A stretch of DNA of 64,000 nucleotides. Source: Pseudomonadota bacterium (GTDB lineage: Bacteria; Pseudomonadota; Gammaproteobacteria; Steroidobacterales; SZUA-146). Both the position numbers and the translations under genes were made by a program. Of this stretch, positions 23,641 to 30,745 are shown one piece after another; the first letter of the stretch is position 1; the number at the start of each line of letters is the position of its first letter. Location: NCBI GenBank assembly GCA_039028935.1, contig JBCCHD010000014.1, positions 1 through 64,000 on the forward strand, read 5' to 3'. A model generated the notes under the pieces. It saw only the letters and a program-made list of their open reading frames with translations, was not told where the DNA came from and made no database searches.

Positions 23641-24273
23641 ATGACTAAACGTGTACGCCTTACGCCGGAAGTCGCCCGCGAGAACATATTGCAGGCGGCT
23701 GAGAAATGTCTTATCAATCATGGTGTTGACGGATTGCGCATGACGGCGGTGGCCGAAGAGGCCAACATCGTTCATTCGTCTATCCTGCATCATTTTGGCA
23801 GCGCCGAAGGGCTCAAACAGGCCCTCGGTAAGCGGTTGTCGATCAAGCTATTTGAAGAAGTGGCCCAAGCGTTGTCCAGCGCCGACCAAACCGACACGGT
23901 GTACAGCGTCGTTGAGCGAATTTTCGATGCGCTCGGTCCAAGCGGTCACGCCAATCTACTCGCCTGGCTGGTGATTGCTGGCCCGAAACGCGACAACCAT
24001 CTCACGCGTATCAACGAAACCTATGGGCATCTGTTCGGCGATATGACGATTCTCGTGCAGCAAAATTTGTCGCGGATTCGCCAGCAGCCAGTGCGAAAAC
24101 GCGAAGCGCGGTTTGTGGTCTACCACGTGCTGATCGCCGCCTGCGGACACGGCATTCTCGGCGACACGCTGCGACCGACGCTTGGCATGCATGAGCAGCG
24201 AAATGCCTATGTGAGATGGTTGTGCGATCGCATCGAACAGCGCGCTACGCTGCCGGGCGACAGTGATCAATAA
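23641..24273 (+). CDS. TetR-family transcriptional regulator
   Basis: A 210-residue repressor-type regulator. The N-terminal HTH domain (about 10-58) reads RENILQAAEKCLINHGVDGLRMTAVAEEANIVHSSILHHFGSAEGLKQAL in pattern, with the typical ILHHFG recognition end. The C-terminal helical domain (about 75-205) would bind a ligand. It is divergent from the COG3687 hydrolase gene with a palindrome between them, so the pair forms a likely regulatory unit. An inverted repeat right after the stop can end the transcript. Confidence 0.88.
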   Translation: MTKRVRLTPEVARENILQAAEKCLINHGVDGLRMTAVAEEANIVHSSILHHFGSAEGLKQALGKRLSIKLFEEVAQALSSADQTDTVYSVVERIFDALGPSGHANLLAWLVIAGPKRDNHLTRINETYGHLFGDMTILVQQNLSRIRQQPVRKREARFVVYHVLIAACGHGILGDTLRPTLGMHEQRNAYVRWLCDRIEQRATLPGDSDQ

Positions 24274-24301: not shown

Positions 24302-24903
24302 ATAAGTCCGACATCCGTGTCAGGTCACTATCGGGTTGGTTGATCCGACTACATCCCCGTTTCGCACGTCGGACAGAATTACTTTTCTACCCGCCGACGA
24401 AATCGGGTTCACGCCCACATCGGATCGACACCGCCTCTCGGCGGTAAAAATAAAGTCGCAGGAAGATGGCGGCCGTATGCAACGCACACGCGCAACGAAG
24501 CGATCGCTTCAAACACTCGTCCCCCCAGACAATAGCGTTAAGACAAACGGTACGCCGACATGACGAACACGTCAAATACGGGGCGGCGTCTCCACGCCCA
24601 AAAAAAGATTATGTCAATTCGGCCGGTCTCGTCTGAACCGTGACACGCCAACGCTCGATCTGAATCACCACTGTTTGCCGCCTTGCGTAAGCGCACTGAC
24701 CAGGCCTCAAAAGCGCCGCCAGCGTGCGGCGTCACAGCGTCTAATTGCGCCCCTCTAAATACACTTAAGGCTCTGATTAAGGACAAATTTGCCGGATTGA
24801 GAAAACGATCACACCCCGCCATCGGGGGAACCCCTAAACTGACGTTAAGTTAATGCCGCACCGACGTATCGGTGCATCGCCGCCACGCATAGCAGGACCA
24901 ACA
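24302..24903 (+). other. 602-bp leader/intergenic region before the chaperone-usher operon, with several inverted repeats
   Basis: No convincing gene. Seen in order: GTCCGAC at 24306-24312 and its complement GTCGGAC at 24368-24374; ACCGCC/GGCGGT (24430-24445); two mutually exclusive hairpins, CCCCG/CGGGG (24814-24827) against GGG/CCC (about 24826-24834); and a 7-bp inverted repeat GCACCGA-CGTA-TCGGTGC (24858-24875) about 30 bases before the chaperone start. This suggests a structured mRNA leader, but it did not match a riboswitch I know. Confidence 0.4.
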
Positions 24904-25596
24904 ATGAACCGCACCGTAATCGTTTTATCGGCCATCGTTCTGATCGCCGCCACCGCGCCCACGTATGCTTCGATGATTGTGAGTAACTCAATCATTCACT
25001 TTGGACCCGACCAACCCAACCGTGAAGACATCGAAATCGAAAACCCGACCGACGAACCGATGTACATCAAAGTGTCACCGTCAATTGTGCACGCCCCGGG
25101 CACCGTCGAAGAATCGCGGGAAATCATTGCCAACCCAAAAACTGCCGGTCTTCTCGTATCGCCCAATAAATTGGTAATCCCGCCCGGCGGCCGCAAACTC
25201 GTACGCTTTGTGAATCTCAAGCCAAACGCCCAACGTGAACACGTTTACCGTGTCGCCATAACGCCAGTTGTGAACGAGGTTAAAGCGAATGCAACCGGCG
25301 TTAAAATCTTAATCGGTTATGAGGTACTGGTCCTCACACAGCCGGTTAATGCTCAGCCGGGCTTGATCGTGGAGCGCGACGGCAAGCGCCTCAGTGTGCG
25401 AAACGAAGGTAACACCAACGTGCTGATGCGCGAGGGCTACCAGTGTCCATTTGACACTCAAGACAAGGAACAATGTGAACCGCTGAGTGGAAAGCGTATC
25501 TACCCGGGCAACGAATGGGGTGTCGATCTGCCGCTGGATCGCCCGGTGGAGTATTTTCTAGCGGTCGGTCGAAAAAACTCTGTGGCGGTCTACTAG
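24904..25596 (+). CDS. Periplasmic pilus chaperone (alternate / CS1-type chaperone-usher system)
   Basis: A 230-residue exported chaperone. The ATG at 24904 begins a signal peptide (to about residue 22, ending TYAS); the frame opens 51 bases earlier. The mature protein has the two-immunoglobulin-domain layout: MIVSNSIIHFGPDQPNREDIEIENPTDEPMYIKVS, then SPNKLVIPPGGRKLVRFV (the exposed G1-type strand with the conserved proline and arginine), and a second domain with ILIGYEVLVLTQP. It binds pilin subunits in the periplasm and delivers them to the usher. The usher gene starts 31 bases downstream, so the two form one operon. Subunit genes are absent between them, unlike the usual CS1 order. Confidence 0.85.
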   Translation: MNRTVIVLSAIVLIAATAPTYASMIVSNSIIHFGPDQPNREDIEIENPTDEPMYIKVSPSIVHAPGTVEESREIIANPKTAGLLVSPNKLVIPPGGRKLVRFVNLKPNAQREHVYRVAITPVVNEVKANATGVKILIGYEVLVLTQPVNAQPGLIVERDGKRLSVRNEGNTNVLMREGYQCPFDTQDKEQCEPLSGKRIYPGNEWGVDLPLDRPVEYFLAVGRKNSVAVY

Positions 25597-25627: not shown

Positions 25628-28600
25628 GTGGTGCCCACCGTATTGAGCTTGCGCGTCGCACCGATGGCGCGTGTCCTGCTGGTGGCCTTGTGCCTGCCAC
25701 TTGCTCCACTGGCGACTGCGCAGCAATCCGAGTCGGTGAATACCGGCGCGACGCCAGTCACGCCCCTCGACCTCACGGCCGAAGCCGCTAAACCGGATGC
25801 GCCCAAAGCCGAGCCCGTCTTCACTCTCGGACCGATGCCTCTCCTGCCACCCCCATCGTGGGGCAAGGAAGACGACGAGTCGGTCAACGCTGATTCTGAT
25901 GCCGCTCGACCCTCGCCCAGTGCGCCAACACCCAAGCCACCACGCGCGGTACGTGAATCGATAAAAGACGTTCCCGCAGCGGTAGAACAGGGCGATAGCG
26001 CCCCGACAACAACCGCCTTATCACCCGCGGTTGAACCGGCGGTGATACGACCACCTGTTGCCAACGACCCGCCCGTCGACACCCGCTCACAGGCGATTAC
26101 CGTCGAAGATACGGAACCGACCGTTGACAACGCACAAGAACCGCTACCGACCTCAACACCAACGATCGAACTGGCACCGTCGCTGAAACCCACGAACCCA
26201 GGCAGCGAGTCGGACGCCACACTGTCCGCACCGGTGATCGACGCGCCGATTAAACCGTTTCGCGAACCGGTCATGGAACAAGTCGATGTAACCGCCAAGC
26301 GCTTACCGCCACCGACGCCCGCCGATATCGAGGACACTGGTTTTGAAGTGTCGAGCGCGCCGCCCCCCGGGTTTGAGGATTTAGCCGGCGCCCAAACCAC
26401 TCTCGTGGACGTCATTTACGCTCAGCGGCTCATCGCGAGCGTGATGGCAACGTTCAACATGGGCACCCTGACGTTTGACGATCCACTCGAAGTCATTGCG
26501 GCGATACCCGATGCAAAAGAGGATCCGGCGCTGCTCAATGCACTGACTGGCCCACTCGACACCCATAGCGATCAGCTGTGCTACAGCGAATACGAAACCG
26601 ACTGCGGAGTGATTGAGCCAGACATTGCGGCATTGATCGTTGACGAATCGCGCTATCGCGCTGAATTATTCATCCACCCCGATTATCTCGAAACACAGTT
26701 TCTCGCCGACAGCGATTATCTGCCGCGCTCCACCACCCGCTCGGCATCCGTACATGCGTTTTCACTCTCGGCGAATGGTGATCAAACCAACAATCTCATC
26801 AATCTTTCCGGCACGTCGCTATACTCGTATCGAGAGAGTCGAATCGAAGCGCAATACGATATCGATAACAACGGTTTTTCCCTTGAAGAACTTACCGTCA
26901 AGCACGATGCGCGAGACTGGGAATACGAAGCGGGTGCGTTCCGCTCGCGGATACAAAACACCACGTTTTTCGCCGAACAGACATTGGTGGGGGCTCGGGT
27001 CGCTTCGTCGCTTAATACGCGTACCGATCTGCAATATGCACAAGCCACACCCCTGTTCGCTTTTTTGAGTCAACGTGCACGGGTCGACATTCTGCGCGGT
27101 GACCAACTGCTCGATTCGCGATTCTATGCGGCGGGCAATCAACAGCTTGATACCTCACGTCTACCGGACGGCGCCTACAATTTGACTGTTCGCGTGGTGG
27201 ACGAATCAGGTCAATACCAAGACACGCCCTACTACTTTACCCGTTCGTCAATGCTGCCCCCAATGGATCGACCGCTGTATTTTGCCGAAGCGGGCCAAAT
27301 GACCCTGACACGGGGTGCCTTGCCAACACTAACCAGTGGACACTGGCTGCGCGCGGGCACGGCTCGGCGCCTGCGCGATAACTTCGGTTTCGAAACGTCC
27401 GTCAGTGCGATCGGCGACGCCACGCTCATTGAAGGCGGACTAATCTGGTTTCAGCCCGGGTTACAGCTTCAAACCACCGTGATGGCCGGCGACAGTACGG
27501 GAGTTGGTTTACGCGCCGTCTGGCAGCGGGATGATATCGCAGTGAGTGCCGACATACGCCGTATTAGTGGTGATCGCGCGATTATGGTCGATGAGATAGA
27601 AGTGCTGCCTCGCGCCTACACGCAAGCCAACCTATCGGCCAGCTTCCCATTTTTTGAGGGTCGCCTTTTGGCACAAAGTCGCTGGGATATGCGCGGCAGT
27701 CGAGATTTCAAATCGCTGGGGATCAACTACGCGCGGGAACTCCGCCGCTTTGCCCGTTCCTCACTGAGTGTAAGCGTAGACACCTCATTCAGTACCGACG
27801 ACAGCATCATCCGCTTTGGCGTCGACTATCGCTTCCGCGAAAATGCGCGCAACGCAACGGTTCAGCCCCGGCTTCAATACACTAGCCGCGGCTCTACCGA
27901 TGCCTTGCTCAACGCCCGTTACACACAAACGTTGCGCGACGATCCAAACGGCGTTTACCGTGCCAGCGCCTTTATTGACCGGGCGGTCGATCGCAGCGTA
28001 TTGGGTGCGCGAATCAGTGGTGAAACGCCGCGCGGTGTCGGTGAATTCGAAGTGCAGCAGTCATTTGGCGGTGAGCAGCCGGGCGCATCCTACATTGCAA
28101 ACGCGCGCTTTGGGCTGGTGTCGTCAGGCACACAAGTCGCCTTTGGCGGACGTCGCGCGAATGCTTCGTCGGTCATTATCGACATTGCCGGAGACGCTCC
28201 TGACGCTGTATTCGAAGTGATCGTGGACAAGCAGAGTCAAGGCTATGCTCGCAGTGGCTCACGAACCATCATTTCACTGCCGCCATACGAAACCTACGAC
28301 ATCCGTTTAGTTGCGCGCGGCGGGGACCTGGTGGAGATGGACGAAACCCAACACTCGGTGACGCTCTATCCTGGCAACGTCGAAACGCTCACATTCCGTA
28401 TTCAGCGACAACTTGTGATTATCGGCAGAGCGGTGGATGAAGAAGGCAACCCCATTCCGCATCATGCATTCGCTGGCCTCCCCGGCTTTGCCTCCACCGA
28501 CGAAAACGGTTGGTTTCAAATCGAGGTCACCAATACCGACGATCAACAGCTCAAGCGTGGTGACTCCACGTGTCGATTGTCACTGCCCGATTGGGACAAA

Positions 28601-28642
28601 AACGAAACGGTTGTTGTGCTGGATGAACTAGTTTGCCGGTAG
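25628..28642 (+). CDS. TcfC/CooC-type outer-membrane usher with long proline-rich N-terminal insertion
   Basis: A 1004-residue usher that exports pilin-chaperone complexes and forms the outer-membrane pore. Start may be the GTG at 25628 or the ATG at 25664; neither has a strong ribosome site. After a signal peptide (through about 32) comes an unusual stretch of about 200 residues rich in Pro, Thr, Glu and Ala. The usher core follows from about 255: an N-terminal chaperone-binding region with FNMGTLTFDDP, LTGPLDTHSDQLC and DCGVIEPDIAALIVDESRYRAELFI, then a beta barrel. The C-terminal CooC/TcfC E-set-like domains include LPPYETYDIRLVARGG and DEEGNPIPHHAFAG. This places it in the alternate chaperone/usher (CS1, alpha-fimbrial) branch rather than the FimD branch. 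Confidence 0.85.
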   Translation: MVPTVLSLRVAPMARVLLVALCLPLAPLATAQQSESVNTGATPVTPLDLTAEAAKPDAPKAEPVFTLGPMPLLPPPSWGKEDDESVNADSDAARPSPSAPTPKPPRAVRESIKDVPAAVEQGDSAPTTTALSPAVEPAVIRPPVANDPPVDTRSQAITVEDTEPTVDNAQEPLPTSTPTIELAPSLKPTNPGSESDATLSAPVIDAPIKPFREPVMEQVDVTAKRLPPPTPADIEDTGFEVSSAPPPGFEDLAGAQTTLVDVIYAQRLIASVMATFNMGTLTFDDPLEVIAAIPDAKEDPALLNALTGPLDTHSDQLCYSEYETDCGVIEPDIAALIVDESRYRAELFIHPDYLETQFLADSDYLPRSTTRSASVHAFSLSANGDQTNNLINLSGTSLYSYRESRIEAQYDIDNNGFSLEELTVKHDARDWEYEAGAFRSRIQNTTFFAEQTLVGARVASSLNTRTDLQYAQATPLFAFLSQRARVDILRGDQLLDSRFYAAGNQQLDTSRLPDGAYNLTVRVVDESGQYQDTPYYFTRSSMLPPMDRPLYFAEAGQMTLTRGALPTLTSGHWLRAGTARRLRDNFGFETSVSAIGDATLIEGGLIWFQPGLQLQTTVMAGDSTGVGLRAVWQRDDIAVSADIRRISGDRAIMVDEIEVLPRAYTQANLSASFPFFEGRLLAQSRWDMRGSRDFKSLGINYARELRRFARSSLSVSVDTSFSTDDSIIRFGVDYRFRENARNATVQPRLQYTSRGSTDALLNARYTQTLRDDPNGVYRASAFIDRAVDRSVLGARISGETPRGVGEFEVQQSFGGEQPGASYIANARFGLVSSGTQVAFGGRRANASSVIIDIAGDAPDAVFEVIVDKQSQGYARSGSRTIISLPPYETYDIRLVARGGDLVEMDETQHSVTLYPGNVETLTFRIQRQLVIIGRAVDEEGNPIPHHAFAGLPGFASTDENGWFQIEVTNTDDQQLKRGDSTCRLSLPDWDKNETVVVLDELVCR

Positions 28643-28712: not shown

Positions 28713-29192
28713 TTACTCGGGGGTGACCATTAATGTGAGCGTTGATCGATAGCTTCCAGCCGGTGCCTGCAGCAACGCATTGGCCGGAAGGATTACTCGA
28801 ATTCGAGCGTTTGGACGGTTGCAAACGCCTTGAAAGTTGCCACGCGCGCGCAAGTCCATCAGGGGCTGGCCCGGTGTCAGATTACGAAAGCCTCGCGCGC
28901 GCCATCGATCCGTGTAGCGCACCCGATAAGGAATTCGATAGGGGCCGCTATGCAGCTCAAACGCTCCCCCGACCTCTTCACCGTATGCCAACACGCGGTA
29001 CGGTCGCCGCTCATCTAAGGCGACGCAAAAGCGCATATCGGCACGCAGCCGACCACCCGTGGAAGACGCTGACCCAAAGTCGATGTCGCTCAGTTCATTG
29101 ATCACAATGCGCTGCGCCGCCGTGTCCGGCGACGCCAGACAAAGACCAAGTGCCAACAGCGTTGGCGCTAAATACAGGCGCAGTGGGTTCAT
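28713..29192 (-). CDS. Pilin-like subunit C, lacking an N-terminal extension (candidate tip subunit)
   Basis: A 159-residue exported protein; ATG at 29190-29192 chosen for its signal peptide (ends near DTAAQ), no strong ribosome site. The mature chain starts almost at once with the subunit core RIVINELSDIDFGS. It then shares the pattern of the two upstream paralogues: one cysteine in ADMRFCVALD, YRVRYTD, a second cysteine in FQGVCNRPN, and the C-terminal APAGSYRSTLTLMVTPE. It lacks the N-terminal ATQG...STG donor-like segment of subunits A and B, fitting a tip or capping position. It is convergent with the usher gene and third in the riboswitch-led minus-strand run. Confidence 0.68.
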   Translation of the reverse strand: MNPLRLYLAPTLLALGLCLASPDTAAQRIVINELSDIDFGSASSTGGRLRADMRFCVALDERRPYRVLAYGEEVGGAFELHSGPYRIPYRVRYTDRWRARGFRNLTPGQPLMDLRARGNFQGVCNRPNARIRVILPANALLQAPAGSYRSTLTLMVTPE

Positions 29193-29396
29193 ACTAAAGA
29201 GTGTAACCACGATTATGGTAAGCCGGTGTTAAAGCCGTCACAGAATCGACTGGCTGACGCCGTATGCCCTGGTAGCAGTGACGCACAGACATCGTAGAAT
29301 ATTTGGTCTTGGAAGCAGACTGGCGTCGTGATCCGAGGCTATTCGCCTTACCGAAAAACGCACCGGAAAAAAGAGTCAGTCAACGAGGAAGCGGAC

Positions 29397-29981
29397 TTAT
29401 TCGGGAATAAGAACAATTGTGAGCGTGCCGGTGTAGTTGCCGGCGGGCGCTGAATTCAGCTCCGTCGCCGGTATGGTCACCTCGATGTTTGCATTATTGA
29501 CCGCGCAACCGAACACGACGTTTAGAAACTGCCAAAATCCGAAGCCGGTTTGATTGTTGAGCATCACGCCACCGGTCACGGGTGTACCACCAGCGCCGAC
29601 CGCATCATTGAACGCAACATTATAGTAAAGAAGATCGGTACCATTAGATAGTGTGAAGGCGTTGACGTCAAAGGCATCGCCATCGCCATCGAGGCGCACG
29701 CGATAGATGCCTGTTCCAAACAGCCCCACGCCACTGCGACCAATACAGAGATTGTCGGATGCCGAAAGGTCGCCTGCTCCAGACCAAGTGCCGAAGTTAA
29801 TGTCGTTGAGTCCGCTGACGCGCGCCACGAGGCCCGTGGTCACCACCACGTCAACGCTACCGGTAGAAATGCCAGGGGCGGTTGTGCCTTGCGTCGCTGC
29901 CTGCACCGTCGCTGGTAAAAGCAGACACAGTGTAACCAACGAAAGCGCGAGGCTACGCAATGGACGAAGTCGATTCGACAT
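29397..29981 (-). CDS. Pilin-like subunit B
   Basis: A 194-residue exported protein with a signal peptide ending VQAA (about residue 28) and mature start ATQGTTAPG. The sequence alternates short strands: SGLNDINFGTWSG, DNLCIGRSG, YYNVAFND, FGCAVNN and PAGNYTGTLTIVLIPE. Two cysteines match those of subunits A and C and likely form a disulfide. The N-terminal segment ATQG-STG-VDVVV could act as the donor strand in subunit polymerisation. The ribosome site is weak (CACCTG), and a strong hairpin separates it from subunit A. Expression below A is therefore likely. Confidence 0.7.
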   Translation of the reverse strand: MSNRLRPLRSLALSLVTLCLLLPATVQAATQGTTAPGISTGSVDVVVTTGLVARVSGLNDINFGTWSGAGDLSASDNLCIGRSGVGLFGTGIYRVRLDGDGDAFDVNAFTLSNGTDLLYYNVAFNDAVGAGGTPVTGGVMLNNQTGFGFWQFLNVVFGCAVNNANIEVTIPATELNSAPAGNYTGTLTIVLIPE

Positions 29982-29999
29982 CAGGTGACGGGCACAACA

Positions 30000-30025
30000 G
30001 TGGTGCGCACCGAAATGCGCACCAC
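30000..30025 (-). repeat. Strong 10-bp inverted repeat (mRNA hairpin) between subunit A and subunit B genes
   Basis: GTGGTGCGCA (30000-30009) and TGCGCACCAC (30016-30025) pair perfectly around a 6-base loop, within the 63-bp gap between the two pilin-like genes. No T-run follows on the minus strand, so it is more likely an mRNA 3'-end stabiliser or partial attenuator than a full terminator. Confidence 0.8.
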
Positions 30026-30044
30026 GTCGGAGCGGATTCCCAGA

Positions 30045-30581
30045 TTACTCGGGAGCAACCACCAGCGTCAGCGTACCCACATAGGTCGCTGCCGGCGCTG
30101 GCAAGAGGTCTGCGGCGGCCACAGTCACAGAAATTGTGGCGTTGTTACCGGTCGTCGCGCAGGTATCGGAACCTTGATCGGCACCGGTCATGCCCGAAGC
30201 CGTGACGCCTGTTGACAGGGCGGTTGGGCCCGAGCCATCGTTAAATTCGACCGAATAAGGAATCGGCGAAGCAATGACACCATCGGTTAAGGTAAAGGCG
30301 TTGGCCGCACCGTCACCAGAGGCAGTGATGTTGTAAAGGCCCGTACCGTTTCGATACACACACGCGTTTGATGAACCGGTCACATCGTTCGTGCCGTCAA
30401 ACGAACCGGTGATATCGGTCAGGTTTGAGATGCGTACTTCATCGTCTACATCAACCGAGATGTCGAGCGTACCGGTCGAGTTACCGCCCACAGCACCCTG
30501 TGTAGCGGCGTAAACAGTCGGCGCTGACAACGCCATAACAGCACCAGCAATCACCAGGCCACGTACTTTCTTATCTAACAT
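30045..30581 (-). CDS. Pilin-like subunit A (candidate major subunit)
   Basis: A 178-residue exported protein. The signal peptide (1 to about 25, ending TVYA) precedes mature ATQGAVGGNSTG, a possible donor-strand extension. The core has SNLTDITGSF, SSNACVYRNG, PYSVEFNDGSG, DTCATTG with the second cysteine, and the C-terminal APAATYVGTLTLVVAPE shared with its two paralogues. It is Gly/Thr/Asp-rich and poor in basic residues, like many major pilins. A strong AGGAG lies nine bases before the ATG at 30579-30581, and it is the first gene after the predicted c-di-GMP riboswitch. These points make it the best candidate for the major pilus subunit. No adhesin-sized subunit is seen. Confidence 0.72.
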   Translation of the reverse strand: MLDKKVRGLVIAGAVMALSAPTVYAATQGAVGGNSTGTLDISVDVDDEVRISNLTDITGSFDGTNDVTGSSNACVYRNGTGLYNITASGDGAANAFTLTDGVIASPIPYSVEFNDGSGPTALSTGVTASGMTGADQGSDTCATTGNNATISVTVAAADLLPAPAATYVGTLTLVVAPE

Positions 30582-30639
30582 GCTTATTCACTCCTAAAGT
30601 TTTTGACCGCTTGGCCGATAACTATGATCGGGGTAGTGC

Positions 30640-30745
30640 GGCTTTGGTAATCCCGCCGTCGTAGGAATCACTTCCCTTAGACCGGTAACTTTGCGTCACT
30701 CCCTTTCAGAAGCTTTGCCCGTTCATTCGTCGCACGCAGGGTCAA
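30640..30745 (-). ncRNA. Cyclic-di-GMP class I (GEMM) riboswitch in the leader of the pilin-like genes
   Basis: Read on the minus strand, conserved GEMM-I elements occur in order with normal spacing. These are GGGCAAA (30714-30720); a short stem capped by a GAAA loop (30704-30707); GACGCAAAG (30689-30697); CCGGTCTAA (30677-30685), the tetraloop-receptor side; and GGCGGGATTACC (30646-30657), equivalent to the 3' GGGUUACC segment of the Vc2 aptamer. About 60 bases later comes AGGAG and the subunit A start. Between them is a short CCGAT/ATCGG hairpin without a T-run, favouring translational control or antitermination without a visible intrinsic terminator. A possible -10 (TACTAT) is at 30786-30791. 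Exact ends are approximate. Confidence 0.85.

Follow-up and report, generated by a model that had tools for sequence, protein, structure and literature searches.

A predicted c-di-GMP-I riboswitch precedes pilin-like genes that converge on class-5-like chaperone-usher genes

The closest described relatives of the element reported here are the Vc1 and Vc2 switches of V. cholerae (RF01051), with which it shares a full-length aptamer, the same ligand contacts, a leader position and a surface-related target, as well as the lack of an intrinsic terminator reported for the V. cholerae switches. Their targets are gbpA or tfoX/tfoY, whereas the target here is a chaperone-usher pilin. A c-di-GMP riboswitch in front of a major pilin gene has also been described, as C. 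difficile pilA1 is under the control of the class-II switch Cdi-2-4 (PMC6366702). That system differs in its aptamer class, in its pilus (type IV), in acting by transcription termination and in having downstream assembly genes that are reached by read-through. According to a review, c-di-GMP switches precede putative fimbrial genes in Aeromonas hydrophila, likewise a gammaproteobacterium, and this source is silent on the fimbrial type and the layout (PMC6366702). Our literature search, which covered few subscription journals, turned up no description of a class-5-like chaperone-usher pilin with a c-di-GMP riboswitch in front of it. Both the type of sensor and the type of target are already known, and the layout described below is conserved.

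We scanned the window, that is, the whole 64,000-nt stretch of DNA analysed here, with cmscan against Rfam. The single match at gathering level, at 30729-30643 of the minus strand, was a c-di-GMP-I (GEMM-Ia) riboswitch aptamer (RF01051); no other riboswitch was found in the window, even at laxer E-values up to 1. The match covers the model in full length (positions 1-87 of 87) with an E-value of 1.4e-13. All 22 consensus pairs are standard, and P2 is closed by a GAAA loop (GNRA cap), consistent with the two-helix fold. The original prediction had called a Vc2-type aptamer from GGGCAAA, a GAAA-capped P2, GACGCAAAG, CCGGTCTAA and GGCGGGATTACC, all of which are present in that order, and had proposed a covariance-model scan as the check; the score of 77.8 bits, about twice the gathering cut-off of 35 bits, bears this call out. 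The span given at that time, 30581-30745, contains the element, the actual limits of which (30643-30729) are slightly narrower. When the four pilin-linked aptamers described below were aligned, 7 of the 22 pairs were altered on both sides and 94% of the cells were paired, a value reached by none of 500 shuffles, while slid versions scored far lower. Since the family is a known one and four sequences were compared, this covariation is to be read as confirmation and not as a discovery.

The aptamer faces three pilin-like genes on the same strand. Gene A (30045-30581) encodes a secreted protein of 178 aa, which is probably the major subunit. Gene B (29397-29981; 194 aa) is a paralogue of A with ∼43% identity. 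Gene C (28713-29210; 165 aa), located 186 nt behind gene B, is more distant from A and B than these are from each other, and its product is possibly a minor or tip subunit. None of the three genes belongs to a Pfam or NCBIfam family. No Pfam pilin family scored above cut-off, the CS1 pilin model gave no match to the pilins even at E-values up to 10, and a PDB profile search with the pilin family returned nothing useful. Against an approximate CfaB sequence, the only similarity was a C-terminal match of 16 residues with 2.6% probability, which we set aside. The AlphaFold model of pilin A is of low confidence (pLDDT 51) and all-beta; its best structural matches are the CfaE pilin domain, CsuA/B, CupE and CfaB, with Z-scores of ∼7 to 8, where values below 8 may, by the tool's own warning, reflect a common arrangement. 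These matches are suggestive of a likeness to chaperone-usher pilins, and we take them as support, not proof. The stronger argument for pilin identity comes from the gene neighbourhood, as in many genomes their homologues lie beside genes for a chaperone and an usher. The designation of the genes as pilin-like is in keeping with these results.

The pilin genes run tail-to-tail into a chaperone-usher pair on the plus strand. The first gene of the pair (24853-25596) encodes a class-5-like (FGA) fimbrial chaperone, as judged from phmmer matches to CfaA and its relatives (E ∼1e-12) and a TcfA-like NCBIfam match. It carries a cysteine pair (CPFDTQDKEQC) in a hydrophilic insertion, predicted to form a disulfide; FGA-type chaperones are characterized by a disulfide pair located in their hydrophilic C2-D2' insertion (PMC4133393). 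The second gene (25628-28642) encodes an outer-membrane usher of the TcfC/CooC type (Pfam TcfC, 5.5e-18, and CooC_C, 2.2e-13, both above their cut-offs; NCBIfam TcfC, 9.5e-24). As the chaperone is CfaA-like, the usher is of the TcfC/CooC type and the CS1 pilin family is unmatched, the sequences assign the pilus to a class-5-like group (CFA/I, Tcf-like), outside the CS1 pilin family. The locus thus resembles the class 5/alpha-clade fimbriae (CFA/I, CS1, Tcf) in its usher and chaperone and in the distant structural resemblance of its pilins to CfaE and CfaB. It differs from them in the missing CS1 family match and in the arrangement of the genes in two convergent units with a riboswitch leader. 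We found no such element before the chaperone-usher genes, in agreement with the original prediction, which had exempted them from riboswitch control. A gene for a TetR-family regulator (23641-24273) lies upstream of the chaperone-usher genes, and at the same place in a genome of the same genus (G001); this protein is possibly their own regulator.

In three other genomes, too, a c-di-GMP-I element immediately precedes the gene A homologue. These genomes belong to the same genus (G001), to a different family of the order (G041) and to a different order (G532), and in each of them the pilin genes are convergent with chaperone-usher genes, as in the window. In G532, a 99%-complete genome, the pilin-linked element is the only c-di-GMP-I element found. 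The tail-to-tail layout also occurs in two further genomes, G557 and G438, yet no c-di-GMP-I element was found anywhere in them. In four others (G047, G666, G677 and G539), which differ in layout, c-di-GMP-I elements occur only away from the pilin genes. Among genomes having c-di-GMP-I elements, a riboswitch therefore stands at the pilin genes in 4/4 tail-to-tail loci vs 0/4 loci of other layouts (Fisher p 0.029, in a small table that was compiled post hoc and in which the window genome and G001 share a genus). As a search of 396 genomes of the order yielded the pilin family in 4, and one of 369 genomes of the class in 14, the comparison is one of few loci. What was observed directly comprises the aptamer, its position, the split layout and, in four genomes, the link between aptamer and pilin gene.

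The genome of the window (G000) has five c-di-GMP-I switches, all facing exported proteins. The elements G000:C7:15947-16036 and G000:C9:63167-63262 precede very large secreted paralogues (1355 and >2198 aa) with a kelch-like domain at the start, G000:C12:49973-50057 precedes the gene for a giant cell-surface protein (>1632 aa), and G000:C6:136196-136273 that for a lipoprotein-like protein of 450 aa. The C7 and C9 aptamers have GGCUCAC...GUCGCAAAG in place of the GGCAAAC...GACGCAAAG of most copies, a change common to congeners and a possible paired variant around P2. Tandem c-di-GMP-I aptamers ∼200-240 nt apart recur in relatives within the order (G012:C28:111525/111764; G025:C27:85314/85558; G058:C34:667282/667523; G048:C5:1052/1280; G073:C200:2339/2545), and one genome, G007, has 21 c-di-GMP-I elements.

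The spacer between genes A and B contains an intercistronic hairpin (29995-30029, minus strand) with an 11-bp and then a 4-bp stem, folding at -27.4 kcal/mol (z -2.6). Equivalent hairpins were found in G001 (z -5.7), G041 (z -4.2), G532 (z -2.6) and G438 (z -4.8), so that a hairpin 3' of gene A is kept in position, with differing sequence, in all five loci. Expression of the first pilin is probably decoupled from that of the rest by this hairpin, which would probably keep gene A mRNA in excess over that of genes B and C. If fimbrial operons in general are a guide, such a hairpin may make the product of gene A the most abundant one. An extreme form of this separation, in which the riboswitch governs pilin A alone and the hairpin, together with a promoter or Shine-Dalgarno sequence of their own, uncouples genes B and C, appears to us possible though rather doubtful. 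The strength of the hairpin in five loci, the run of U residues 3' of its stem in G438, which makes it resemble an intrinsic terminator there, and the 186-nt gap before gene C are in its favour, but the hairpin of the window has no U tail, and in G041 hardly any gap separates genes A, B and C. The original prediction of a three-gene operon holds in placing gene A under the leader; because of the hairpin after gene A and the gap between B and C, only gene A is clearly under it, and the membership of gene C in the operon is uncertain.

Between the aptamer and the ATG of gene A (at 30581) lies a 61-nt segment, the putative expression platform (30582-30642, minus strand), within which GCCGC (30642-30638) is able to pair with GCGGT (30610-30606). 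The Shine-Dalgarno sequence AGGAG (30591-30595) is near its 3' end, 9 nt 5' of the ATG. The distance of about 60 nt that had been given from the aptamer to both AGGAG and the start codon fits the latter (61 nt), but AGGAG is only 47 nt away. Neither a terminator-like site nor a terminator-like hairpin was found between the aptamer and the ATG, which bears out the earlier statement that the gap has no intrinsic terminator; this is still compatible with Rho-dependent control. A promoter scan gave one weak site, within expectation. Given the good Shine-Dalgarno sequence and the terminator-free leader, we infer, as the original prediction did from the missing terminator, that control would act at translation initiation.

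We consider an ON switch, in which high c-di-GMP leads to more pilin, to be the likely direction, on the basis of the usual role of c-di-GMP together with weak evidence from folding. Constrained folds were valid for the G000, G001 and G041 leaders, and G532 was excluded. In free folds, the Shine-Dalgarno sequence is hidden in G000 and G001, and in leaders starting from the aptamer UUUAGGAG at this site can pair with the 5' strand of P2 and its tetraloop (CUUCUGAA). In an ON switch, the Shine-Dalgarno sequence and the ligand would thus compete for P2. When the G001 leader was cut at the aptamer, constraining the aptamer fold lowered the pairing of the Shine-Dalgarno sequence from ∼1.0 to ∼0.5, partly freeing it. 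This change disappeared with 25 extra upstream nt, and in G000 it appeared only with this longer leader. In G041, a local hairpin sequesters the Shine-Dalgarno sequence in both the free and the aptamer-constrained folds. We rejected the pairing with P2 and the tetraloop as evidence, since this Shine-Dalgarno sequence pairs just as well with P2 strands taken from unrelated riboswitches, and we also rejected folding as a judge between ON and OFF, since its outcome varies with the start of the leader and among the four leaders. By this cross-pairing control, the folds support an ON switch only weakly and not above chance.

The opposite direction, in which c-di-GMP lowers pilin output through hiding of the Shine-Dalgarno sequence or Rho-dependent termination in the leader, is in our estimate unlikely, though the indecision of the folds leaves room for it. 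In C. difficile, the functional class-I switches, seven in number, are without exception OFF switches acting by intrinsic termination, and the two V. cholerae switches are opposite in direction (PMC6366702). However, c-di-GMP usually promotes adhesion, Vc1, located before the adhesin gene gbpA, loses expression as c-di-GMP falls (PMC4744006), and the leader studied here is terminator-free.

Whichever the direction, it is very likely that a functional c-di-GMP riboswitch controls pilin A, a reading based on the score, the contact bases, the covariation, the conservation, the GGDEF matches and the terminator-free leader. In the alignment, the window aptamer has G, A and C at the equivalents of G20, A47 and C92 (model positions 11, 38 and 83), and these bases are present in all four pilin-linked aptamers. 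G20, A47 and C92 of Vc2 are contacts of c-di-GMP (PMC4744006); the Vc2 numbering was taken from the literature, with contact roles from the same source and the residue list of 3IRW from PMC7288161. The genome has 35 GGDEF matches, from which it follows that c-di-GMP is very probably made in this bacterium. Five of the 16 predicted c-di-GMP switches of C. difficile are inactive (PMC6366702), but the high score, the intact contacts, the covariation and the conservation across orders make a functionless relic very improbable here. Least probable of all is a response to 3',3'-cGAMP (GEMM-Ib) instead of c-di-GMP: the same Rfam family includes some Geobacter GEMM-I members that bind cGAMP (PMC8835794), but G20A is the change studied as permitting cGAMP binding (PMC6274999, PMC7288161), and the G at this position in 4/4 pilin-linked copies favours c-di-GMP as the ligand.

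For a functional c-di-GMP riboswitch, the proposed course of events is as follows. The aptamer would form part of the 5' leader of the subunit genes of a class-5-like chaperone-usher pilus, and binding of c-di-GMP to this leader RNA would alter the output of the first pilin. The chaperone and the usher would be made from a separate, convergent transcript that is free of riboswitch control. In this way c-di-GMP, a signal for cells to settle on surfaces, probably controls the supply of these pilus subunits directly. We put forward, tentatively and as an unlikely extension, that the split into convergent transcripts makes the leader a valve for subunit supply while chaperone and usher are made regardless, with the hairpin setting how much major subunit is made relative to minor ones. 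In the loci compared, the riboswitch goes with the split layout (4/4 vs 0/4 loci). The locus would represent a conserved case in which c-di-GMP acts on a chaperone-usher pilus via RNA, bypassing a transcription factor. With this action confined to the subunit genes, the supply of subunits would be separable from the assembly machinery.
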